From positions 1 through 33,996 of the forward strand of contig JAJCYP010000137.1 in assembly GCA_029262855.1 (NCBI GenBank): DNA of 33,996 nt, in the 5' to 3' direction. Positions 10,719 to 33,996 of the stretch are shown here, one piece after another; position 1 is the first letter of the stretch; the number at the start of each line of letters is the position of its first letter. Below the pieces are notes generated by a model. That model did no database searches. It saw nothing but the letters and a program-made list of their open reading frames with translations, and had not been told where the DNA came from. A program made the position numbers and the translations under genes. The DNA comes from Bacteroidota bacterium (GTDB lineage: Bacteria; Bacteroidota; Rhodothermia; Rhodothermales; UBA10348).

Positions 10719-11324
10719 TCAGTTACTGATGTGGGAATCCAACAGCTTTCGGAGTGCCTGCCGGGCGCGATGCAGCCGGACCCGCACTGCGCCATTCGAC
10801 ACATCGAGCATGCGGGCGACCTCTTCGGTCCGGATTTCTTCGATGTCGCGCAACGTGACGACAACCCGGTAATCCTCAGGAAGCTGGGCGATGGCCTGGT
10901 GCACCAGTTCACGACGCTGACTCAGTTCGGCCAGGCGGTGCGGATTCCAGGTCTCCGCGTGGTCCACGTACATTCCGCCGCTGAACTCCGGCTGCATGCG
11001 CTCGACCGCGGCCTCGTCCAGAGGTGACAGGCGGCGAGATTTTCTCAGTGAGCCGCGGGCCAGGTTGATTCCAATCGCGTAGAGCCAGGTGGTAAACTTG
11101 GCCTCGCCGCGGAACGTGTCGAGTCGCTGGTAGGCCTGCAGAAACGTCTCCTGCATCAGACTGGCGGCCTCGTCCTCGTCATTCACGACGCGGTTGATCA
11201 CCCGGAAGAGACGCGGCGATTCCTGTCTCACCAACTGCTCAAACGCCGCCCCATCACCCGCGAGGAGCGCTTCGACGTCCAGGGGATCGCCGGGTTGTGA
11301 TGTGGACTTGCCTTTAGTGGCCAA
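10719..11324 (-). CDS. ECF (RpoE-type) RNA polymerase sigma factor
   Basis: About 201 residues if it starts at TTG 11324 (LATKGKSTSQPGDP read as M). Sigma region 2 is visible as FEQLVRQESPRLFRVINRVV, DEDEAASLMQETFLQAYQRL, and FTTWLYAIGINLA; region 4 as VHQAIAQLPEDYRVVVTLRD, EEVARMLDVSNGAVRVRLHR. Length is normal for ECF factors. The start is uncertain: no ATG lies before region 2, another TTG at 11435 would add 37 residues rich in Arg/Ser/Pro that look non-coding, and neither start has a clear ribosome binding site. The adjacent anti-sigma gene supports a two-gene regulatory unit. The sigma may direct its own promoter in the spacer before pdhA, which holds a perfect 18-bp palindrome. Confidence 0.9.
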   Translation of the reverse strand: MATKGKSTSQPGDPLDVEALLAGDGAAFEQLVRQESPRLFRVINRVVNDEDEAASLMQETFLQAYQRLDTFRGEAKFTTWLYAIGINLARGSLRKSRRLSPLDEAAVERMQPEFSGGMYVDHAETWNPHRLAELSQRRELVHQAIAQLPEDYRVVVTLRDIEEIRTEEVARMLDVSNGAVRVRLHRARQALRKLLDSHISN

Positions 11325-11380
11325 AGCGTGCGAGGTGGAGTATTCGGATGTGGCGAGTATACGGCGGCCGCTTCTACAGG

Positions 11381-11398
11381 GCAGGAAGCGCTTCCTGC
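11381..11398. promoter_or_regulatory. 18-bp perfect palindrome between sigma factor and pdh operon
   Basis: GCAGGAAGCGCTTCCTGC reads the same on both strands and sits in the 209-bp spacer between the divergently transcribed sigma-factor and pdhA genes. Nine-base perfect half-sites with no spacer fit an operator for a dimeric regulator. It could control either gene or both. No known regulator motif is recognised in it. Confidence 0.4.
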
Positions 11399-11410
11399 GT
11401 GGTGCGCTCG

Positions 11411-11446
11411 ACGGCCTGCGGTTAAGAAGCGGCAAACCGCCGTTTT
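11411..11446 (+). promoter_or_regulatory. Hairpin plus short T-run upstream of pdhA
   Basis: On the plus strand GCGGTT (11418-11423) pairs with AACCGC (11435-11440) across an 11-nt loop, extended by ACG/CGT with a bulge, and TTTT follows at 11443-11446. It resembles a weak intrinsic terminator. No upstream plus-strand gene needs terminating here, so it may be a leader attenuator for pdhA if transcription begins further left, or a chance structure. Confidence 0.25.
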
Positions 11447-11533
11447 ATCTCCCCCCAATCGCCTATTTTTCCTTGCTGTCCGCTTCGGCGTTTTGAGCGC
11501 GGAGCGGTGTCCTTAACAAGTGAACAGATTGTA

Positions 11534-12679
11534 ATGGCGAGTCAAACCAAGGGGACTACCCGGCGCCGCAAGCCGGCCGCGAAGAAGACCACCCCGGTCG
11601 AGACGAACGGTCAGTCGGAAAAATTTCCGGAGGCTGCGCTCAAGCTGGAACGTACCTTCGAGTCCTATCCGGCGGGCAAGTTTACCCACAAGGACGTGGG
11701 ACTCTCGGCCGATCAGGTCATGGCGATGTACCGCAACATGCTGCTACAGCGCCGCTTCGAGGAGCGCGCTGCACAGATGTACGGCAAGCAGAAAATCGCA
11801 GGTTTCCTCCATCTCTACATCGGGCAGGAGGCCGTTTCGACCGGTACGGCCGCGGCCCTCGAGATCGGCAAGGACTCGGTGATCACCGCGTATCGCGACC
11901 ACGGTCACGGACTGGCGCTTGGCATGAGTGCCAATGAGTGCATGGCCGAGCTCTTCGGCAAGATCGACGGCTGCTCCCGAGGAAAGGGCGGGTCGATGCA
12001 CTACTTCTCCAAGGAGAAGGGATTGTTCGGCGGCCACGGTATCGTGGGTGCGCACATCCCGGTGGCCGTCGGCATCGCGTTCGGGCACAAGTACCGGGAG
12101 ACCGGCGGCGTGTGTGTCGGTTTCTATGGGGACGGCGCGGCCGGTCAGGGCGCCGTCCACGAGGCGTCGAACCTCGCCTCGCTCTATGAATTGCCCGTCA
12201 TCCTCGTGGTGGAGAACAACCACTACGCCATGGGCACGGCGGTGCACCGGGCGTTTGCCGAGACGGAGTTCACCCGTCACGCGGTCGGATACGACATGCC
12301 GGCGGCCGTCGTGAACGGCATGGACGTCTTCGCCGTGACCAAGGCCATGCAGGATCACGTGGCGATGGCGCGTGAGAATCGGTCGTCGATGCTGGAGATC
12401 CGCACCTATCGGTACCGCGGACACAGCATGTCTGATCCGCAGAAATACCGCACCAAGGAGGAGCTGGAGTCCAAGAAAGACGAGGATCCCATCATCCGCC
12501 TGAAGGCCTACATCCTCGAGGCGAAGATGTCCGACGCCGAGGCGCTCGACGCCATCGACGAGGACGTCAAGGCGGAGGTGCTGGCATCGGTGGAGTTCGC
12601 CGAGAAGAGTCCGGCTCCCGATCTCAGCACGATCTACGAGGATGTCTACGAAGAGGACGATTACCCCTTCATTTCGTAG
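11534..12679 (+). CDS. pdhA: Pyruvate dehydrogenase E1 component, alpha subunit
   Basis: 381 residues from ATG 11534 (MASQTKGTTRRRKPAAKK). With E1beta it decarboxylates pyruvate and reductively acetylates the lipoyl group of E2, in the cytosolic complex that feeds acetyl-CoA to the TCA cycle. Visible features: YGKQKIAGFLHLYIGQEAVS, the thiamine-diphosphate motif GDGAAGQGAVHEASNLASLY ending in VENNHYAMG (GDG...NN), FGGHGIVGAHIPVAVGIAF, and the phospho-loop region YRGHSMSDPQKYR. The loop and GGHGIVGA motifs favour pyruvate over branched-chain 2-oxoacids. The first 30 residues are a Lys/Arg/Thr-rich disordered extension absent from most bacterial E1alpha proteins. A more upstream frame start at 11507 is possible but has no better site. 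First gene of a pdhA-pdhB-pdhC operon; E3 is not in the window. Confidence 0.96.
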   Translation: MASQTKGTTRRRKPAAKKTTPVETNGQSEKFPEAALKLERTFESYPAGKFTHKDVGLSADQVMAMYRNMLLQRRFEERAAQMYGKQKIAGFLHLYIGQEAVSTGTAAALEIGKDSVITAYRDHGHGLALGMSANECMAELFGKIDGCSRGKGGSMHYFSKEKGLFGGHGIVGAHIPVAVGIAFGHKYRETGGVCVGFYGDGAAGQGAVHEASNLASLYELPVILVVENNHYAMGTAVHRAFAETEFTRHAVGYDMPAAVVNGMDVFAVTKAMQDHVAMARENRSSMLEIRTYRYRGHSMSDPQKYRTKEELESKKDEDPIIRLKAYILEAKMSDAEALDAIDEDVKAEVLASVEFAEKSPAPDLSTIYEDVYEEDDYPFIS

Positions 12680-23747: not shown

Positions 23748-26700
23748 ATGGACAGCAAGAAATTGCTACAGCTCTTCTCGAAGACTGCATTCGCATCCCT
23801 CGTCCTGGTGGCGATGATGGGTCTGCAGATAGCTTCGGCGGCGACGATCTTTGTATCGTCGACGACGGGTTCGGACGCTTTTGATGGCGCTACGGCAACC
23901 ATCTCTGGCGGATCGGGTCCGAAGGCTACACTCGCAGCGGCATACGCCGCGGCTGCTGCTGGTGACACAATCAGCATCGAAGCCGGCGCTTACGGCGAAA
24001 ACTTCGACTTCGGTACAGCAGCCAAGGGGGTAACCGTTGTGGTTACGCCGGCTGGTGCTGTAACCGTCGCGACGTTTGCCGGGACGTCAACCATCAACAT
24101 CACGACTGGGACGATTACGCTTAATAGCGGGACGGGCTCAATCGCGGTTGCTGGTGGCACATTCACACTAACCTCCGGTACGCTTGCGCTCGGAACAGGC
24201 AAGCTTGCCTTCACCGCTGCGACGACTCTGAACGTCACCGGTGGCACGGCAACGGGAGCCTCCCCAGGCTACACCGGAGCGGTTACGGCCAACTACACGA
24301 AGGCTGCCGCTGGTTCTGCAGGAACGGAAATCCCGGCTAACCTGAACGGTGGTACGCTAACCGTTAACGGTGCCTTCAATACGACCTTCCCTGCTACTCT
24401 AGTGGCTGGAAGCGTTGTTACTGCTGGCTCCGCTACGGGTGTTACCACCTTCTCTGGTGCGGTCACCGTCACCGGCGCTGTCACTCACAACGGTGATGAC
24501 ATCGTCTTCGGTGCGCTGAACCTCTCCAACGGCGCAGTCACCTCTGCTGGTGGCGGTGCTGATCAGACCTTTGTGGCTGGTGCGGTTACTGCTACGCAGG
24601 ACTTCGCTGCTCAGGGTGGTACGATCACCAACACGGCGCCTTCCGCGATGACGCTTGGCAGCTTGACTGTCAACTCAACTATCGTCGGCGCTGGGAATGG
24701 TGCAAGCGATCCGCTGGCCTACACAGTTGCCAACACGGGTACGCTGACGGTCAATGGAGCCATCACAGAAGGCTCGGCGTCGGACGCTAGCCCCGAGACG
24801 GATGGCGCAGCCATCGCGCTGACCAATAGTGGCACAGCCACTCTTGGTGCAAGCTCATCGATCTCAGGTGCGTTCAACAACACGGGCGGAACGCTGGCAC
24901 TCGGCAGCTGGACGCTTACTCTTGCTAAGGATGTCGCGGCTGGAAACAACGCGATCACCGGCATGGGTACGGTAACCGGCGCAACGTCGACTGTCGCAGT
25001 ATCTCGCGACACGGGCGTTCCTGCCTCTACGGGTGTTGCTGCTCCCGCCTTCGATATCGCCGGTTCGGTTAACATCTCCGGTAACGGTGGTGTAGTCGGC
25101 GCGATTTCTGTTGCTGGCGCTGTTACCAACTCAGGCAACGGCGCGATTGCCGCGGCTACCCGCACGGGTGGCAACCTGAGCAACACCGGCAACGGTGCGG
25201 TCACTGCACTCGTTACCGTCGGCGGCAGCCTAACCATGGCAGGCACCGGCGGCGTGAATGGTGGTGGTGACTTTGATGTAGCTGGCGGAGCAACCTTCTC
25301 CGGCAACTTCACGATCGCCTCTGGTGCGACCAACGACATTGACGGCGCGGTTAGCGTTTCCGGTGCCGTTGTACTCGCGGCCAACACGACCTTCGGTTCC
25401 GGTTCTGTCACCTCGACGGGTGGACTCACCATCAACAACGGCATCACGCTGACGATGAACGGTGACCTCAACACGTCGCTTGGCGGCGCTTTCCTCGCAG
25501 GTACCGCGGCCAACTCGGTTGCTGACAACGCGACGCTGGCCTTCGTCATCGCGCGCGGCACTACGGCAACTTATACGCCTGGTCCGAATACCTCGGTTGA
25601 TGACCTGATGCTCAGTGCATCCGGTACGACGGGGACGGCCACTTTGGTGATGGGACAGTCGGTTGCGATCGACGAGAACTTCACGACGATGCCTAACACG
25701 TCGGTCAACCTCGGCAACTTCCTGATTCGCCACACCGGTAATACGGCACGTGCGGCGGTTGGTGGAAACATGACCACTCCGGCTGGTCAGGATGGTGCAC
25801 TGGCATTCGAGGGTACCACCAACACCCTTGAGGGACTCGGAGCAATCTCCAATATCCTCGTAAACGTGGGTGCTGGAAATCGTCTTGCCGTCGTCGCAGC
25901 TGCCGCCCCGTTGGCTGCTGGTCCGACATCGATTGACTTCACAGGCGCACTCTCGTTGTTTACGGGTGGAGTCACCATCGCCGCTGGATCTGACGTCTCG
26001 CCAACCGGCTCGACCGCTGAGATTCGCCGCAATGCCGCAGCAGCGGCTGCTGTCACCGACATCATCGGTGCGGGCACGGTCAACGGAGATAATCGTACCT
26101 ACACCCTGACCATCTTCGGTGCCGGTGCAGTTACGGCCGCCTCCGAACTGGCTGTGACGGGTATCACTACCCTCAACGTCAACGACACCGCTACCTACAC
26201 CTCTAACAAGAGCGCAACCGTAGGCAACGTCAACGTTGCTGTCGGCGCCACTCTTGCGAACGGTGCAGGCTTCGACCTCACGGCGACGGGCACGGTTGCC
26301 AACGCCGGTACCGTCAACGGTGCGGTTGGCGACCAGCTCATCCTCACGGGTGACAACGCGTCGCACACCAACACCGGTAACATCAACGCTGATCTAAGCG
26401 CCCAGGCGTCTGGCATCACTGTTACGGGTACTACGACACTCTCCGCTGGTGCACAGGCTGCTTCTCTGACCAATGTCATTGTTGGCGACGGCGCAGCTGG
26501 CACGGGCACCGAGTCCCTTACCCTAACCAACATCCAGCAGATCGACGGTACAGTCGCTGTCGCTTCTGACGGTAGCCTTTCTCTTGGACTCGTCCAGGAT
26601 GACGGCACCGCCGGAACGGGTGACGGTGATGAAGGCTCTGTTGCTGGTGCGATCACCGTTACCGACGGTGGTTCAATCACGCTGACGACCAACGTCCGGG

Positions 26701-29700
26701 GACAGGCTGCTGTGACGGTTGGAACGTTAGGCGACACCGCCGTGCCGACCTTCAACTTCAACGGCAACGAGTTCAACATGGGTGCTGCAGCCTTCGCGGC
26801 TGACTGGAACGCCAATCTCGGTACCAGTGGTAACCTCGAACTCGACGCTGCTGGTACGGTCACGACCAACGCCAACAACGCCACGCCAAGCACGCCAACC
26901 TCAGCCCTTCCGGGTCTCCAGGTTGACGTCGCTTCTGCGCTGGCCGGCAATACTCGCGTCGTGGGTCTCACCGATGTGAACGCTGCACTCACCGGTGGCT
27001 TCGGCCTCACGGTGTCTGGCACGATGAACGTCGGTGCGGGCATTACGAACAACGTGACGATCATCGGCACGACGGTTAACATTGAAGGCGCGCAGACCCT
27101 CACCGGTTCGCTGACCGTCAATGCGACCTCTGTCGACTTCGTCGGAACGACCGCTGCTGCGGACTCATGGTCCATTACGCTTTTCTACACGCATACGGCT
27201 GGTGCTGTCTCCCAGACGAACACCGACATCAACGTTGCTGGTACGTTCACGCAGACGGCAGGTAACTACACCCTCACGGGAAGTGACCTGAACCTGGCTG
27301 GTGCCGCCACCTACGTTGCAGGAACGTTCTCCGCCGCCGGTTCTGGCGACGAAGTCCGCTTCCGCGGTGCAGTTGCGGCCGTCAACACCAGTGGTACAAC
27401 CTGGACCATCCCGAACGTGGATGTCGAGCGTGCCGTTGTGATTGACGGAGCCGCTGGTACGGCCGCCGACGGCCTGACGATTGGCAACCGCCTCGAACTG
27501 GCTGCCGCAGCCGGCCTGACGGCTGGCAACGGTTCCGGAGCAGGTACGCCGACCGGAACCATCACGCTCGGCGATGGCAGCGGAACGCTGTACATCGATG
27601 CTGCGGGTGGAACGATCGCGGACGCTGGTGCCGACGGCTCGGTAGTCTACGGTTCTGACACGACGACGATTGAGTACAACGGTACTTCACCGTCGACGCT
27701 TGAGCTGTTCACGACCTTCGACACGCTGATAATCAATGCTGCAGTAGCCCTCGCCGATGCGCGTGCGGTTACGGTCAATAACATTGACATCAACGCAGTC
27801 GGATCGGACATCGATGCCAACAACGACGGCGACAACAGCATCACGCTGACTGCCGACGGCACAGTGAACTTCGGTGTCGGTGGCGCTCCGTTTGTTGGTC
27901 CTGAGACCTTCACGCCGGCTGCGATCACGGACTACAACCTGATCTACGATAGCCCGTCCGTGACGACGACCGCTCAGGAATGGGCGGCAACGTGGACGCC
28001 GGATGTCACCGTCTCTGGAAACGGAGCGGGTGTTCAGACTGTCACCATGGGTGGTAGCCGTGGGGCAACCTCGTTGACGATGAACGGAGCTGGTCCGGAC
28101 GTGCTGGAATTGGGTGGATTCACCCTGTCAGTGTCCGGAGCCGTCACGCTTAACGGTGTGGCAACAGTTACCAACGTTGTTGGTGGAGGAGCGCTTGCCT
28201 TTACTGGTACTGCGGTTCAAACTCTGGCCGGCGGACTTACGCTTGCAGGAGTGACGGTTAACAACCCTGCGGGTCTGACCCTCACCGGTGGTGACCTGAA
28301 TACTTCGGGCACGGTCTCCGGGACCGCCTGTCTTGCACCTGGCACCAATGGCCTAACTCTCACGAATGGTGTTATCACCACTGGTGCGAACCGGGTCATC
28401 ATCTGTCACGCTAGCACGACGGTTCAGGGTTACACCCGCACCAACGGAGTTGTCTTTGGCAACGTCCAGGTTACTGTCGATGGTACGGCACCTCTCAACA
28501 CGACAGACCGTGTGCAATTCCCATTGGGAGATGCGTTGGGCAATTGGCGTCCGTACGCCATTACCTTCAACTCTCCGGCCAACCTGGCCTCTGATCCGAC
28601 GCTCGTCGCTTCCTACGAAGAGACGAACCCGGGCGGAACGAATGGTCTTCCAGTAGCAGCTGTCGATGATCTCGGCGCCAACTTCACGGTGAGCCGCTAT
28701 CCCGACTTCCACTGGAAGGTTACCTCGGCTCCGACAGTGACCCCGTCCATCAGCTACGACGTTGAGTACCGTGCAGACGGCTACGCCAACTTCGCCGTTG
28801 AGGATATCGAGAAGACCCGCGCGATCCGTCGTCAGGACGGATCCACGGCCAACTTCTGGATCAAGGTTGCCAACGGCGCCTCTGACAACGACAACTTCGC
28901 TGTCTCGGCCGACGAGCCTGTGATGGTTGCTCGTAATGCGGTAGGTGCCATCAACGCCGACGGTGTTCTCTTCACCATCGGTCTTGAGAACAACCTGGCT
29001 GGCTCGGCGATTGCTGACGCTACGGTCAACGCCGGTACCTCAACCCCGGGTGTCGATCTGTCAACGATCTTCTCCGGTGGCGACCGTGCCGGTGCCGCAC
29101 CGACCTACACGTACGCAGTCTCCGGCGGTGACGCTGCGGTCGCTACGGGTGCAACGGCGGGCGATACCTTCACCATCACTGGTGTAGCCGCTGGTTCCAC
29201 CACGTTCACCATCACAGCGACTGACTCGTTTGGCTCGACAGCAACCGCTACGGCTACTGTCACGGTCAACGAGGCATTCGCTGCCGGTACTGATCTCGCT
29301 GATCTCGCCGCTGTGAACGTCGGCGCAGCCGACGCAACGGTTGACGGATCCGGTTCCCATCAGGGTGGAACGGCTCCTGTCACCTACACGGTTGCAACGA
29401 GTGACGCAGCTGTGGCTACGGCCACTGTTGATGGCGCTGGAAGCATTACCGTCACCTATGTAGGTGCCGGCACGGCGACCATCACGCTGACCGCTACGGA
29501 TGCCCTTGGCTCCACGGTCGTCGATTCGTTCGACGTCACGGTCAACTCTGCAGTCTCTGCGGGCGGCACCCTGACCAACCAGTCCGTCAACAATGGCGCC
29601 ACGGTTGATCAGGACGTGTCTGGCGAGTTCTCCGGTGGAACCGGTGGATTCACCTACACCGCTGCTTCTGGCGACGCTGATGTCGCGACCGCGGCAGCAA

Positions 29701-30719
29701 GCGGCTCGACGGTCACGACCACGGGTGTCAACCCGTACGTCATCACCGCAGGTGCAGTCACTGCTGACGCGGCTCCGGCCACGATCACGGTGACCGCAAC
29801 CGACGCTCTTGGCAGCACGGTCTCTTCGACCTTCGACGTTGAAGTCAACCCCGTCCTCGGTAACGTGGACGGAAGCGGCGGCGTCAGCCCGGCATCAGCC
29901 AGCCTCGCCCTGGATTCATTCCTGGGCCTCGCCACGCTGACTGCCAAGCAGTGGACTGCTGCTGACTACAACATCGATGCTGCGGTCACGCCGTTTGACG
30001 CTGCGCTCATCTTCGACGCATGGTTGAACCCGACTCCGGGTGCTGCCAGCAAGAAGGAGTTCGCCGCCAACCCGGCTTCTGATGTCGCCTTTGGCGAAGT
30101 GAACATGCAGGTGACCAAGGTCACGATTCCTGTCACCCTCACCGGTGATCAGGCGGCTGCTGTCTCCTTCAGCTTCGAGACGTCGATCAACGCAGAGCTT
30201 GCAAGCGTAACCGGTGTCACCGGAACGATTGAAGGCTGGACCGTGAGGCACTTTGTCGGCGAAGACGGAATCCTCCGTATCGCTGGCTTCGGCTTCGAGG
30301 CCATCCCGAGCAACGGCGTTGTTGCCAACATCAGCCTTGAGCTGACGGATGTCGGTACTGAGTTCGCGCTTCGCGGACAGGGTGCTGTCAATAACAACCC
30401 GGCAACGGAGATTGAAGGCATCGACGTCGTCGAGCTGCCCGAAAACTTCGCGCTGCTTGGCAACTATCCCAACCCGTTCAACCCGAGCACGAACATCTCC
30501 TTCGACCTGCCGGCTTCTGCTGACGTCTCGATTGAGGTCTACGACATGCTGGGTCGCCGGGTGATGGTTCTTCCGATGCAGACGATCCAGGCTGGCTCGA
30601 AGCGTTCAGTTCAGCTGAATGCCTCTCAGCTCGCTTCGGGATCCTACTTCTACCGGGTCATTGCCCAGATGGAGAGCAAGACGCAGGTCGACAACGGCCG
30701 GATGATGCTCATCAAGTAG
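23748..30719 (+). CDS. Giant secreted beta-helix protein with Ig-like repeats, dockerin-like and cohesin-like domains and T9SS sorting tail
   Basis: 2,323 residues from ATG 23748, which follows GGAAAGAGG by 8 nt; the frame is open 34 codons further upstream but that part has no signal-peptide form. The signal peptide ends near residue 28 (MMGLQIASAA). The mature start TIFVSSTTGSDAFDGAT, then AAAAAGDTISIEAGAYGENF parallels the leftward giant. Residues about 80-1560 are Ala/Gly/Thr/Val/Asn-rich beta-solenoid turns (GAVTVTGAVTHNG) with very few Lys, Arg or Cys. About 1561-1750: YPxG-like module (VQFPLGDALGNWRPYAITF). About 1754-2033: three Ig/cadherin-like repeats each containing ITATDSFGST- or TATDALGST-like strands. 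About 2037-2095: dockerin-like duplicated loops (NVDGSGGVSPASASLALDSF; DYNIDAAVTPFDAA). About 2111-2225: cohesin-like domain. About 2230-2323: T9SS type A tail with LLGNYPNPFNPSTNISFDLP. Probably an abundant cell-surface protein; biochemical role unknown. Confidence 0.92.
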   Translation: MDSKKLLQLFSKTAFASLVLVAMMGLQIASAATIFVSSTTGSDAFDGATATISGGSGPKATLAAAYAAAAAGDTISIEAGAYGENFDFGTAAKGVTVVVTPAGAVTVATFAGTSTINITTGTITLNSGTGSIAVAGGTFTLTSGTLALGTGKLAFTAATTLNVTGGTATGASPGYTGAVTANYTKAAAGSAGTEIPANLNGGTLTVNGAFNTTFPATLVAGSVVTAGSATGVTTFSGAVTVTGAVTHNGDDIVFGALNLSNGAVTSAGGGADQTFVAGAVTATQDFAAQGGTITNTAPSAMTLGSLTVNSTIVGAGNGASDPLAYTVANTGTLTVNGAITEGSASDASPETDGAAIALTNSGTATLGASSSISGAFNNTGGTLALGSWTLTLAKDVAAGNNAITGMGTVTGATSTVAVSRDTGVPASTGVAAPAFDIAGSVNISGNGGVVGAISVAGAVTNSGNGAIAAATRTGGNLSNTGNGAVTALVTVGGSLTMAGTGGVNGGGDFDVAGGATFSGNFTIASGATNDIDGAVSVSGAVVLAANTTFGSGSVTSTGGLTINNGITLTMNGDLNTSLGGAFLAGTAANSVADNATLAFVIARGTTATYTPGPNTSVDDLMLSASGTTGTATLVMGQSVAIDENFTTMPNTSVNLGNFLIRHTGNTARAAVGGNMTTPAGQDGALAFEGTTNTLEGLGAISNILVNVGAGNRLAVVAAAAPLAAGPTSIDFTGALSLFTGGVTIAAGSDVSPTGSTAEIRRNAAAAAAVTDIIGAGTVNGDNRTYTLTIFGAGAVTAASELAVTGITTLNVNDTATYTSNKSATVGNVNVAVGATLANGAGFDLTATGTVANAGTVNGAVGDQLILTGDNASHTNTGNINADLSAQASGITVTGTTTLSAGAQAASLTNVIVGDGAAGTGTESLTLTNIQQIDGTVAVASDGSLSLGLVQDDGTAGTGDGDEGSVAGAITVTDGGSITLTTNVRGQAAVTVGTLGDTAVPTFNFNGNEFNMGAAAFAADWNANLGTSGNLELDAAGTVTTNANNATPSTPTSALPGLQVDVASALAGNTRVVGLTDVNAALTGGFGLTVSGTMNVGAGITNNVTIIGTTVNIEGAQTLTGSLTVNATSVDFVGTTAAADSWSITLFYTHTAGAVSQTNTDINVAGTFTQTAGNYTLTGSDLNLAGAATYVAGTFSAAGSGDEVRFRGAVAAVNTSGTTWTIPNVDVERAVVIDGAAGTAADGLTIGNRLELAAAAGLTAGNGSGAGTPTGTITLGDGSGTLYIDAAGGTIADAGADGSVVYGSDTTTIEYNGTSPSTLELFTTFDTLIINAAVALADARAVTVNNIDINAVGSDIDANNDGDNSITLTADGTVNFGVGGAPFVGPETFTPAAITDYNLIYDSPSVTTTAQEWAATWTPDVTVSGNGAGVQTVTMGGSRGATSLTMNGAGPDVLELGGFTLSVSGAVTLNGVATVTNVVGGGALAFTGTAVQTLAGGLTLAGVTVNNPAGLTLTGGDLNTSGTVSGTACLAPGTNGLTLTNGVITTGANRVIICHASTTVQGYTRTNGVVFGNVQVTVDGTAPLNTTDRVQFPLGDALGNWRPYAITFNSPANLASDPTLVASYEETNPGGTNGLPVAAVDDLGANFTVSRYPDFHWKVTSAPTVTPSISYDVEYRADGYANFAVEDIEKTRAIRRQDGSTANFWIKVANGASDNDNFAVSADEPVMVARNAVGAINADGVLFTIGLENNLAGSAIADATVNAGTSTPGVDLSTIFSGGDRAGAAPTYTYAVSGGDAAVATGATAGDTFTITGVAAGSTTFTITATDSFGSTATATATVTVNEAFAAGTDLADLAAVNVGAADATVDGSGSHQGGTAPVTYTVATSDAAVATATVDGAGSITVTYVGAGTATITLTATDALGSTVVDSFDVTVNSAVSAGGTLTNQSVNNGATVDQDVSGEFSGGTGGFTYTAASGDADVATAAASGSTVTTTGVNPYVITAGAVTADAAPATITVTATDALGSTVSSTFDVEVNPVLGNVDGSGGVSPASASLALDSFLGLATLTAKQWTAADYNIDAAVTPFDAALIFDAWLNPTPGAASKKEFAANPASDVAFGEVNMQVTKVTIPVTLTGDQAAAVSFSFETSINAELASVTGVTGTIEGWTVRHFVGEDGILRIAGFGFEAIPSNGVVANISLELTDVGTEFALRGQGAVNNNPATEIEGIDVVELPENFALLGNYPNPFNPSTNISFDLPASADVSIEVYDMLGRRVMVLPMQTIQAGSKRSVQLNASQLASGSYFYRVIAQMESKTQVDNGRMMLIK

Positions 30720-30734
30720 TAGAGTGTTCGCAAC

Positions 30735-30754
30735 GGGGGGCCTTCCGGCCCCCC
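30735..30754 (+). terminator. Strong GC hairpin after the rightward giant gene
   Basis: GGGGGGCC, a TTCC tetraloop and GGCCCCCC form a perfect 8-bp stem 15 nt after the stop codon. There is no T-run after it, so it may stop transcription only partly, or protect the 3' end of the giant mRNA while allowing some read-through into the cohesin gene 53 nt downstream. Confidence 0.55.
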
Positions 30755-30764
30755 AGCGCGACTT

Positions 30765-30778
30765 CTAGATCCATCTAG
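30765..30778. repeat. Short inverted repeat before the cohesin gene
   Basis: CTAGATCCATCTAG has perfectly complementary 6-bp arms around CC. It lies between the GC hairpin and the ATG of the cohesin/CHRD gene. The 2-nt spacer is too tight for an RNA hairpin, so a protein binding site is the better guess. Could be chance. Confidence 0.25.
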
Positions 30779-30806
30779 CACACACCCAAGAAGAGCTATA
30801 AAACCC

Positions 30807-33023
30807 ATGCGAAAGGTTCTCAATAACTGGCTGCGGACTGCTGCCCTTGCCGTCGCGTTTATCGCGATGGGCGCGGACGTGTCGCTGGCACAGGTAACTG
30901 TGTCAGTCAACGACATTTCTGGACGTCCAGGCGAGTCAGCCTCCATAGCCGTGAGCCTGAGCGGCGTCGAGGGTGGAACAGACATTCAGTCGTACAACCT
31001 TACGGTTGGTACGGCGAGTGGAAACGTTGCACTTGCCTCGATCGATTATGTGGGCACGCTGGCCGAAGGATTCACCAACAACAACAACGCTGGTGCATTT
31101 CCGACAACGGCTGACGTGACCATCGGTGGTTTTTCCATCGGTACCGACATTACTACCTCGGGCACGCTGCTCATTCTCAACTTTAATTTTGTGGCCGCCG
31201 GGTCAGATACAGTTACTCTGACCGGTACCACGTTTAATGCTGGAGACCCAGCCGTTGCTTTTGGTTCCGACCTGACCGCAGCAGTTGTGTCGTCCAATCG
31301 CTTCCTGAATGCCTCGACGCACAGCGTCTTGACGACGGCTCCTGATTTCATGATTGAAATCACGGCCGAAGACGCATTCACGGCTGGCGATAATGTGATT
31401 TCCTTCAACTTCGATCTGGATTACGATCCGGCCGTCGTTACGCTCGGCACCGCTGTGGCTGGTGACTTGAATGCGTCTGGCTGGACCGTGAACCAAAGCG
31501 GAGCTGCGGGTTCGCTCACCATCGGAGCATTCCGCTCTGGTGGCACCGCGCTTATCGGTGCTGGCGTCATCGTTCGCATCCCGGCGTCAGCCGGGGCTGC
31601 CGGTACGACGGCTCTCGACCTGAACTCAGTGGTCTTCAACGCCGGCTCGCCGGTGTATGCTGATCGCGACGGTTCGGTTACGGTCACCTTTATTTCCGCC
31701 AACGTGGCTCCTGTTGCAACCGATGCTTCGGCATCGACCAGCAACTTCGAGTCTGTTGACATCACGCTGAGTGCCACCGACGCCGATAGTGGTCCCTCGG
31801 GACTCACTTTCACCGCGACGCAGCCGGCAAACGGCTCCGTCACGGTTAGCGGCAATGTGGCCACCTACACCCCGAACTTCCCGTTCACGGGCGATGACAG
31901 TTTCACCTTCACCGCCAACGACGGCGAAGATGATTCCAACGTCGCTACCGTCACAGTAACCTCGACCGCTACGGGCGAGGCCTACCTGGCCGGTGTGAAC
32001 GAGGTGCCCTTTGTGGCTACTCCGGGTTCTGGTTGGGTGACGGTCTCGATTGCAAACAACGTGGCGACCTTCACGGGTTGGTTCACCGGTTTGTCTGGTG
32101 ACTTCTCCGCCTCTCACGTCCACGCCGCCGGCGTTGGTGTGAATGGCGGCGTCGTCCAGGCCCTGACCGGTGGTATCACGCTTGACCCGGGCAACCGCGG
32201 CGGGTCGTATAACACCACGGTCGACCTGTCAACGAACACCGCTCTCGCGGATGCAATCTGGGGCGGCGGCGCCTACGTGAACGTTCACTCGGCCGCTTAT
32301 GGCCCGGGAGAACTTCGCGGCCAGATTCTTTCGGGAGGAAACGTGGCGCCCAACGGCACGGACGTTCGCGCACCATCCTCGGTGAGGATCTCCGGCAACA
32401 GCGAAGATCGGCTGTACTCTGTCAGCTGGCTTCCGGCTGCGGATGCTGACGGCGACGAGGTTCACTACCTCTACCAGTTGTCGATGAACGGCAGCTACAC
32501 CGACATCGTGTTCTTCGACTCCTTTGCCGACGGCAACGGATTCCGGGTCACGGTGGGTGAGGCTGCGGAACTCTACGATCTGGTTACGGATGCCGAACCA
32601 GGCATGGTTGACGTGGGTGGTTCCATCACGCTGTATCACCGCGTGATCACCACGGACGGCTCCCGCTGGACGGCAGGTACAGGCGCCTCCATCACCCTCG
32701 AGCGTGGCACTGTCACGGCAAATGAGGGCGAGACGGAGCTTCCGGCCGAGTTCGCACTGAAGGGCAACTACCCGAACCCGTTCAATCCGACTACCAGCAT
32801 CCAGTTTGATCTGCCGGAGACGGCTGATGTCGCAATCACTGTGACGGATATGCTTGGCCGCGAGGTCATGAATGTGCCGACTCAGTCGATGCAGGCTGGA
32901 TCCAACCTCTCCGTGCTGGTGCAGGCTGGTTCGCTGACGTCAGGTCTCTATCTGTACCGGGTTACGGCCCGCTCAGCTTCGACGACCTACTCGAAAGTTG
33001 GCACGATGACGCTTATCAAGTAA
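30807..33023 (+). CDS. Secreted protein with two cohesin-like domains, Ig/cadherin-like domain, CHRD domain and T9SS tail
   Basis: 738 residues from ATG 30807; AGAAGAG about 11 nt upstream is a possible ribosome binding site. Signal peptide to about residue 28 (ADVSLA). Residues 29-165 (VTVSVNDISGRPGESASIAV, SGVEGGTDIQSYNLTV) and 178-297 (ISFNFDLDYDPAVVTL) look like two cohesin-type beta-sandwiches. Residues 300-386 form a cadherin/Big-type domain (LSATDADSGPSGLTFTA, YTPNFPFTGDDSFTFTANDG). Residues 388-510 match the CHRD domain (AYLAGVNEVP, SASHVHAAGVGVNGGVV, AYVNVHSAAYGPGELRGQI). About 645-738 is a T9SS type A tail (LKGNYPNPFNPTTSIQFDLP). Expected to be displayed on the surface. The cohesin domains could bind the dockerin-like segment of the giant encoded just upstream, which is a hypothesis. 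A strong terminator follows. Confidence 0.92.
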   Translation: MRKVLNNWLRTAALAVAFIAMGADVSLAQVTVSVNDISGRPGESASIAVSLSGVEGGTDIQSYNLTVGTASGNVALASIDYVGTLAEGFTNNNNAGAFPTTADVTIGGFSIGTDITTSGTLLILNFNFVAAGSDTVTLTGTTFNAGDPAVAFGSDLTAAVVSSNRFLNASTHSVLTTAPDFMIEITAEDAFTAGDNVISFNFDLDYDPAVVTLGTAVAGDLNASGWTVNQSGAAGSLTIGAFRSGGTALIGAGVIVRIPASAGAAGTTALDLNSVVFNAGSPVYADRDGSVTVTFISANVAPVATDASASTSNFESVDITLSATDADSGPSGLTFTATQPANGSVTVSGNVATYTPNFPFTGDDSFTFTANDGEDDSNVATVTVTSTATGEAYLAGVNEVPFVATPGSGWVTVSIANNVATFTGWFTGLSGDFSASHVHAAGVGVNGGVVQALTGGITLDPGNRGGSYNTTVDLSTNTALADAIWGGGAYVNVHSAAYGPGELRGQILSGGNVAPNGTDVRAPSSVRISGNSEDRLYSVSWLPAADADGDEVHYLYQLSMNGSYTDIVFFDSFADGNGFRVTVGEAAELYDLVTDAEPGMVDVGGSITLYHRVITTDGSRWTAGTGASITLERGTVTANEGETELPAEFALKGNYPNPFNPTTSIQFDLPETADVAITVTDMLGREVMNVPTQSMQAGSNLSVLVQAGSLTSGLYLYRVTARSASTTYSKVGTMTLIK

Positions 33024-33047
33024 GCCATCTGCTTGTCTTTTGGAGAG

Positions 33048-33084
33048 CCCCGGCTCGCGTAAAGCGGGTCGGGGTTTTCTTTTT
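33048..33084 (+). terminator. Intrinsic (rho-independent) terminator
   Basis: CCCCGGCTCGC (33048-33058) pairs with GCGGGTCGGGG (33064-33074) over a GTAAA loop, an 11-bp stem with two G-T wobbles, followed by TTTTCTTTTT (33075-33084). It begins 25 nt after the stop codon of the cohesin/CHRD gene and is the clearest terminator in the window. It implies that the next cohesin gene has its own promoter in 33085-33184. Confidence 0.92.
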
Positions 33085-33184
33085 GGCCCGAATCCTGCTG
33101 CTTCCTCGCGTGTTTGAGTGAGGAACTTCATCGCCACGGGCAGTATTCCTACCTGCCGCCACTAACTGCAAGATTCCGCCGCCT

Positions 33185-33996
33185 ATGCGCTTGCTACAGG
33201 GTCTCGAAAAGACAGCGGGCCTCCTTCTGGCCTTACTTATTGCCGCTTTTCTGCCACTTACCCTACAGGCGCAGGTCACGGTTACCGTGGCGGACGTCTC
33301 GGCCGGTGTTGGCCAGGAGGTAGATGTACCGGTGATTCTCTCCGGCGTTGAGGGCGGTCAAGCCGTCAGCTCGTTTCAGATAACGGTCAGTATTGCCGAT
33401 GCGGGCGTCACCGTGGTCCGGCCAGACGCAGGAAGTCCAAACTTCCATGTTGCCACGGGTACTCTCGTCCAGAACTTCACCGTCAGCTCGAATGACGCCA
33501 ATGGTCGAATCGGAGGATTCACAAGTTCGACCAATGCGTTTGCTGGATCGGGGACGCTGATCTTCATCCGCATGAAGGCCACCTCGGCGATCAGTACCAC
33601 GGTCACCCTGAACGATTTTAAGCTCAACTCAGGCAATCCCTCGCACACGCCCACCGCCCCCAGCTTCACCTTCGACGCCACCGGCGGCGGAGGAGGCGGA
33701 GGCAACAACACCCCAGTATCCTCAGACGTCTCCGTCACAACCTCTGAAGACACCGCGGTCACTGTCTCCTTCAGCGCCACCGACGCCGACAGCGATCCAC
33801 TGACGTACTCCGTCGTCGCAGGTCCATCCACCGGCACCGTCGGCGCTGTCTCCGGCAACGAGGTCACCTACACGCCCACGTCTGGCTTCACCGGTACCGA
33901 CACCTTCACCTACAAGGCCAACGACGGAACCGCCGACTCCAACACCTCCACGGTCACGGTCACTGTCAACGCATCAAGCGGCGGCAACAACACGCC
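33185..33996 (+). CDS. Secreted cohesin-like and Ig-like repeat protein, 3' end outside window
   Basis: The frame is open from ATG 33185 to the right edge (270 residues visible). The signal peptide ends near residue 29 (LPLTLQAQ). Residues 30-165 are a cohesin-like domain whose start, VTVTVADVSAGVGQEVDVPV then SGVEGGQAVSSFQITV, is closely similar to the first cohesin of the preceding gene, so the two genes look like tandem paralogues. A seven-glycine linker ending in NNTP leads to a cadherin/Big-type domain at about 178-262 (SFSATDADSDPLTYSV, YTPTSGFTGTDTFTYKANDG). Another linker (SSGGNNT) begins at the very edge, suggesting that the Ig-type module repeats beyond the window. A T9SS tail is expected but not visible. 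No good ribosome binding site is seen before the ATG. Confidence 0.88.
   Translation, partial: MRLLQGLEKTAGLLLALLIAAFLPLTLQAQVTVTVADVSAGVGQEVDVPVILSGVEGGQAVSSFQITVSIADAGVTVVRPDAGSPNFHVATGTLVQNFTVSSNDANGRIGGFTSSTNAFAGSGTLIFIRMKATSAISTTVTLNDFKLNSGNPSHTPTAPSFTFDATGGGGGGGNNTPVSSDVSVTTSEDTAVTVSFSATDADSDPLTYSVVAGPSTGTVGAVSGNEVTYTPTSGFTGTDTFTYKANDGTADSNTSTVTVTVNASSGGNNT

Follow-up and report, generated by a model that had tools for sequence, protein, structure and literature searches.

Cohesin-dockerin pairing outside cellulosomes is established, and going by its title, a 2009 paper by Peer et al. reportedly traces cohesin- and dockerin-like modules beyond the cellulosome through all three domains of life. 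Here, we describe such modules in a stretch of DNA from a Bacteroidota bacterium, referred to as the window, which is the entire contig C137 (33,996 bases) of a 4.74-Mb genome. Three rightward genes are located at the right end of the window. The first encodes a giant protein, p1, which contains a dockerin-type segment, while the following two, p2 and p3, start with cohesin-type domains. We suggest, with a probability of roughly 0.55 judged from the sequences, that p1, p2 and p3 belong to a single assembly on the cell surface that lacks enzymes, and in which the dockerin of p1 binds a cohesin of p2 or p3.

Several described systems resemble this set. The closest solved folds to the cohesin within p1 are the Clostridium perfringens cohesins 2w1n, 2vo8 and 2jh2 (GH84C and a family 33 hydrolase), which likewise occur outside a cellulosome. 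However, these sit on glycoside hydrolases (GH), while the cohesins of the window sit on surface proteins of the type IX secretion system (T9SS) without a recognised enzyme. A cellulosome-like complex is described for Candidatus (Ca.) Stygibacter of the Cloacimonadota, together with a scaffoldin-like protein whose C-terminal attachment domain is conserved, and one dockerin is also found on a halomucin-like non-enzyme. There, the dockerins are on GH and peptidase enzymes and a 3,755-aa scaffoldin has carbohydrate-binding modules (CBMs) (PMC8542988), whereas in the window it is the giant that bears the dockerin, and neither a CBM nor an enzyme was found. Dockerins and cohesins also occur on non-cellulolytic proteins of anaerobic methanotrophic (ANME) archaea, in some cases next to S-layer domains, and as in p1 a dockerin can share its chain with cohesins, there several. 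However, these proteins are archaeal and, in the passages that describe them, variable rather than a conserved neighbouring gene pair (PMC9012536). For Melioribacter, it is reported only that its cellulases are without dockerins (PMC3534657).

An earlier, sequence-only reading of the window had called a non-cellulolytic, T9SS-exported surface assembly built by cohesin-dockerin contacts new. With ANME and Ca. Stygibacter as precedents (PMC9012536, PMC8542988), this was worded too strongly. What looks new is the conserved enzyme-free pair of a dockerin giant and a cohesin gene, of which no description was found in the literature, surveyed mostly by title and abstract start.

Dockerin and cohesin domains of the three proteins

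From the N-terminus, p1 consists of a long repetitive region, a PKD/Ig-like stretch, the dockerin, a cohesin-fold domain and a T9SS tail. The features of the window are (signal peptides of p2 and p3 assigned by eye):

23748..30719, + strand: p1, giant surface protein of 2323 aa from the chosen ATG (open frame from 23646)
29856..30041, + strand: dockerin type I-like domain of p1 (Pfam, family profiles, structure model)
29862..29897, + strand: dockerin loop 1, p1 residues 2039-2050, degenerate, position 12 is S
29964..29999, + strand: dockerin loop 2, p1 residues 2073-2084, positions 1, 3, 5, 9 and 12 all filled, Ala in place of Gly6
30072..30437, + strand: cohesin-fold domain of p1 in cis, directly C-terminal to the dockerin (match to 2jh2_C)
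30465..30680, + strand: T9SS type A sorting domain of p1 (Pfam and NCBIfam)
30807..33023, + strand: p2, 738 aa, with signal peptide, two cohesin-type domains, Big_9, CHRD and T9SS tail
30891..31301, + strand: cohesin-type domain 1 of p2 (weak Pfam match, cohesin dyad match, local profiles)
31302..31700, + strand: cohesin domain 2 of p2 (Pfam, structure match to 5nrk_A)
31980..32327, + strand: CHRD domain of p2 (E=6.8e-18)
32769..32996, + strand: T9SS tail of p2 (Pfam and NCBIfam)
33185..33996, + strand: p3, at least 270 aa, with signal peptide, cohesin (33275-33658) and Big_9, cut by the contig end
16456..23379, - strand: p4, second giant, divergently transcribed, with T9SS tail

The sequence-only reading had placed a dockerin-type segment in the giant, and both its type and its position were borne out. 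An isolated 74-aa piece matches Dockerin_1 (PF00404) with E=0.0032 and 18.0 bits, under the Pfam cut-off of 22.9 bits, and neither full-length p1 nor a 198-aa piece gives a Pfam match to this family. Family profiles find solved dockerins. When a profile of nine family members is compared with solved structures, dockerins rank first (8x39, E=1.2e-5), and with 19 members (the nine and ten more relatives) solved dockerins are matched at E=3.3e-15. From these two profiles it follows that the segment is more than a chance resemblance, which we reject. A profile of the whole p1 matched only the dockerin entries 8x39 and 8x3a in the PDB (E 0.008-0.009). Dockerin_1 is found at E 0.1 or better in 13 of the 19 modules, and over the Pfam cut-off in all five giants of relatives that were scanned. 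By this profile evidence, p1 carries a divergent type I dockerin.

A type I dockerin has two calcium loops with ligands at positions 1, 3, 5, 9 and 12. Of the duplicated calcium loop described earlier, the second copy stands, as all five positions are filled in the window, while the first is without its last ligand throughout the family. Among the nine family members, position 1 of loop 2 is always D, position 3 always N or D, position 5 D in six and S in three, and position 12 always D. In loop 1, position 1 is N or D in all nine and position 3 is D in eight of them. Ten relatives from outside the family keep D at both positions 1 and 12 of loop 1 (10/10), position 3 varies, and Gly6 is kept in only one of them. 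From this ligand pattern we infer a weakened first loop and thus a one-sided dockerin. As to the three-helix fold of dockerins, the structure model predicts helices after the loops at 16-26, 34-40 and 50-61, but at low pLDDT (predicted local distance difference test score).

Directly after the dockerin, p1 contains a domain with a cohesin fold, which the earlier reading had overlooked. The model of this domain has blocks with a pLDDT of 74-91 from residue 81 onward, and matches the C. perfringens cohesin 2jh2_C with Z 13.4 (root-mean-square deviation, rmsd, 2.5 over 118 aligned positions). The window p1 gives no match to Pfam Cohesin (PF00963) here; among relatives, the cis domain matches this family at E 0.1 in 3 of 19 modules, with 21.6 bits in one member of the same family (G004), and over the cut-off in two of five scanned giants of other families. 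Taking the modelled fold and the matches in relatives together, p1 is a dockerin plus a cohesin in one chain. The idea that only the next two genes bear cohesins is thereby rejected.

The earlier statement that both following genes begin with cohesin-like domains is borne out, although unevenly by Pfam. Against a cut-off of 24.1 bits, the cohesin of p3 scores 31.7 and lies above, while domain 2 and domain 1 of p2 score 22.2 and 12.6 and lie below. The model of the p2 cohesin pair has a mean pLDDT of 80.4; domain 2 aligns to 5nrk_A with Z 16.4 (rmsd 2.1, 130 aligned), and the cohesin dyad 3l8q_C aligns over both domains with Z 13.0 (rmsd 7.3, 247 aligned). In the model, the fold of domain 2 is clearly that of a cohesin. 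The fold of domain 1 is assigned from the dyad match and local profiles, as most structure alignments cover domain 2. In the profile searches and structure prediction that the sequence-only reading had proposed as checks, PF00963 is over its cut-off in p3 and PF00404 stays under its own in the isolated piece; cohesin folds are matched with Z 13.4 and 16.4, and the dockerin helices are modelled at low confidence.

The expected export tails are present on p1 and p2, where the type A sorting domain is over both the Pfam and the NCBIfam cut-offs, as is the expected CHRD domain on p2. The tail of p3 is known from relatives alone, since p3 is truncated where the window and contig C137 end; its homologues carry T9SS tails, one of the two scanned being over the Pfam cut-off. 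The tail of p4 is over the NCBIfam cut-off and just under that of Pfam. The genome also encodes SprA (SprA_N, E=4.7e-88).

No catalytic domain is recognised in p1, p2 or p3 by Pfam and NCBIfam scans, in agreement with the earlier statement that a catalytic carbohydrate-active domain is absent. A scaffoldin combines several cohesins with a cellulose-binding module; in p2, by comparison, there are two cohesin-type domains and no CBM among the Pfam matches. In the whole genome, a scan with Dockerin_1 gives no match reaching E 0.01 and four at E 1, all below the cut-off; a profile of the p1 module (dockerin and cis cohesin; profile A1) finds only p1 at E 1e-6, with 10 of 17 candidates scored, and BLAST with the module returns only the module itself. 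A divergent dockerin could hide elsewhere, because the Pfam search misses even that of p1. With no Dockerin_1 match over the cut-off in the genome, in a search that misses p1 as well, and no catalytic domain recognised in p1-p3, a cellulosome is rejected.

Conservation of the giant/cohesin gene pair

The family of the window genome (f1) comprises 27 genomes, this one included. The p1 module is found in nine of them and a strong homologue of p2 (E<1e-30) in ten. The two sets coincide except for one genome (G013), where only about 0.1 kb separates the p2 homologue from a contig end; two further genomes (G002 and G022) have weaker cohesin matches only. As far as the contigs extend, the f1 loci preserve the arrangement p4-like giant, p1, p2, p3-like. 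Of 296 genomes drawn evenly from the phylum, 64 match the module or part of it at E 1e-6, many of the weaker matches covering only part; six of these genomes belong to f1, another eight to the order, 16 to the class and 34 to the rest of the phylum.

Neighbouring genes were counted at 45 loci, nine from f1, 16 from the order and 20 from elsewhere in the phylum. A cohesin-type gene is located at most 3 kb downstream of the module-bearing gene in 34 of the 45 (f1 9/9, order 7/16, elsewhere 18/20), and upstream in none of the 36 loci with 1-3 kb available on that side. Among the 34, two cases are less firm, as in L086 the neighbour is another module gene and in L205 the match is a 14-bit fragment. 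The local cohesin profiles were trained on f1, so their counts are not independent for this family. Pfam is independent of them, and its Cohesin family is over the cut-off in nine of ten downstream proteins scanned from the 20 phylum loci. The conserved adjacency argues for a functional dockerin-cohesin pair, as far as gene order can tell. Among the giants of relatives, Pfam finds beta-helix repeats in three of the five scanned.

These counts depend on how the loci were chosen. The 16 loci of the order are counted per locus at places other than the f1 locus, including a second copy in the sister genome G001, while G045:C117 and G045:C156 were dropped, having no cis cohesin after the dockerin. 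The 20 phylum loci, one per genome, were chosen from the best-scoring of 50 matching genomes outside the order, and with five equally scoring genomes left outside they are not a random draw. Several genomes are incomplete.

A few loci show other arrangements. The second copy in G001 (L089 7991-14890, - strand) is a giant that also ends in dockerin, cohesin and T9SS tail, but no gene within 3 kb of it encodes a cohesin. Three loci (L069 11614-12099, + strand; L071 11167-11619, - strand; L072 6887-7390, - strand) contain, between the homologues of p2 and p3, small proteins of 151-168 aa, apparently a signal peptide and one cohesin-like domain without a T9SS tail; a weak Pfam match is seen in one of them.

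A related family, f8, shows another distribution of the same domains. We read 17 dockerin proteins from 16 loci picked among 29 matches, and 14 of them have a dockerin alone near the C-terminus, without a cis cohesin. One of these 14 carries a polysaccharide lyase 14 domain, and dockerins occur on other secreted proteins of f8 as well. The same genomes contain T9SS-tailed tandem-cohesin proteins, in which local profiles place four to six cohesins; in the two scanned with Pfam, Cohesin is found in six and three stretches. From the combination of dockerins without cis cohesin and tandem cohesins in the same genomes, binding in trans is favoured in this order, and a trans dockerin-cohesin pairing is therefore plausible here. 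Three f8 genomes likely hold a T9SS scaffoldin system, given these domain assignments. Their loci are:

L082, 7506-11006 (- strand) and 11228-11998 (- strand)
L083, 6912-9521 (- strand)
L084, 8600-11224 (+ strand)

In each of these three genomes the tandem-cohesin T9SS protein adjoins a single-cohesin T9SS protein, and the genomes have 7, 10 and 12 dockerin matches. The L082 protein has six PF00963 stretches (E=9.8e-47) and a DUF4397. After many of the C-terminal dockerins of f8 (L133-L148) comes a short tail that contains two Cys (of the type CFPAE..C), and such a tail also follows the dockerin in giants of genus g22 within the order (L018, L019, L023); a disulphide is possible.

Proposed surface assembly and alternative explanations

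The best explanation for a conserved neighbourhood of plug and sockets, mostly with export tails and without a recognised enzyme, would be a surface assembly. In this model, p1, p2 and p3 would be exported through the type IX system, and the dockerin of p1 would then plug into a cohesin of p2 or p3, with calcium, mainly via the filled loop 2 and the helix following it. The smaller cohesin proteins would thus keep the giant in place within a layer or fibre, most likely for adhesion or as a matrix. The in-chain cohesin of p1 may compete for the dockerin, cap it until export or link giants together. The domains seen by the sequence-only reading are confirmed, while their interpretation as a functional assembly is partly supported by the comparisons above.

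Several points weigh against this assembly. Position 12 of loop 1 is S, G or A, and no acid, in all nine family members; six of the 19 modules, that of the window included, have no Dockerin_1 match at E 0.1; and the dockerin part of the model is of low confidence (pLDDT about 30-57). In nine of the 16 loci of the order no downstream cohesin gene was found, including all six of genus g22, two of which have just 1.1-1.4 kb of downstream sequence; the one Pfam match here is weak, with 19.4 bits, next to the giant of G083. The gene order could also come from co-regulation of surface proteins rather than from contact. Finally, the dockerin of p1 could find its partner in the cohesin fold of its own chain, without p2 or p3, and this cis domain is the main difficulty of the assembly model.

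This last point leads to the strongest, although in our view unlikely, alternative, in which the dockerin folds onto the cohesin-fold domain that follows it, so that the two make up a closed stalk module close to the T9SS tail, the cohesins of p2 and p3 being used otherwise. In 25 of 27 loci the dockerin precedes a cohesin-type domain, partly by selection because these loci were found with the entire module as query, and the spread of the module, or part of it, over 64 of the 296 phylum genomes fits as well. However, the linker between the two domains varies in length and sequence, most of the f8 proteins (14/17) have the same type of dockerin without the cis domain, and the downstream cohesin genes in 34 of 45 loci would be left unexplained.

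Less probable still is a chain, in which each giant inserts its dockerin into the cis cohesin of its neighbour to form a self-polymerising layer, with p2 and p3 as terminators or cross-links. Both partners are indeed present in a single p1 chain, and in G091 there are three dockerin-cohesin genes in tandem; however, binding by this cohesin subfamily is hypothetical. At L086 (1437-19999, - strand), a 438-aa cohesin-like protein comes after three tandem module genes.

The modules could also be inherited spacers that have lost binding, as loop 1 is degenerate and the Pfam score of the dockerin is under threshold. We regard this as slightly more doubtful than the chain, since D1 and D12 of loop 2 are invariant in 9/9 family members and a gene pairing is not expected to persist after loss of binding. 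An anchor for enzymes encoded elsewhere, i.e., a T9SS cellulosome, is very improbable. Relatives in f8, where a polysaccharide lyase and further secreted proteins bear dockerins, speak for it, but the window genome has no Dockerin_1 match at E 0.01, in a search that overlooks even the p1 dockerin, and its module searches return p1 only.

Returning to the surface assembly, it can be speculated, at somewhat less than even odds, that much of the phylum builds a part of its surface from such a conserved, enzyme-free and T9SS-exported pair of a giant and a tandem-cohesin protein. The giant, often beta-helical and ending in dockerin, cohesin and tail, would be plugged by its dockerin into the protein encoded directly downstream, in a structural and not a digestive role that precedes or parallels the scaffoldin-type systems of the same order. 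If this is true, cohesin-dockerin pairing reaches beyond the digestion of biopolymers into phylum-wide surface architecture, a role emerges for giant T9SS proteins without a known function, and new binding pairs are on offer.

Other features of the window

Six pieces of p1 upstream of the dockerin were scanned with Pfam, and no family is over the cut-off. A scan for regulatory sites found no promoter-like sites and five terminator-like sites (8.1 expected). A search of viral contigs gave no match, while p2 matched three plasmid records that cover 12-27% of the query.

Between p1 and p2, at 30735-30754, there is a very stable hairpin with eight G-C pairs that lacks a T run. None of 200 shuffles folds as well as the intergenic stretch (z -3.35), and the hairpin may stabilise or separate the messages of p1 and p2.

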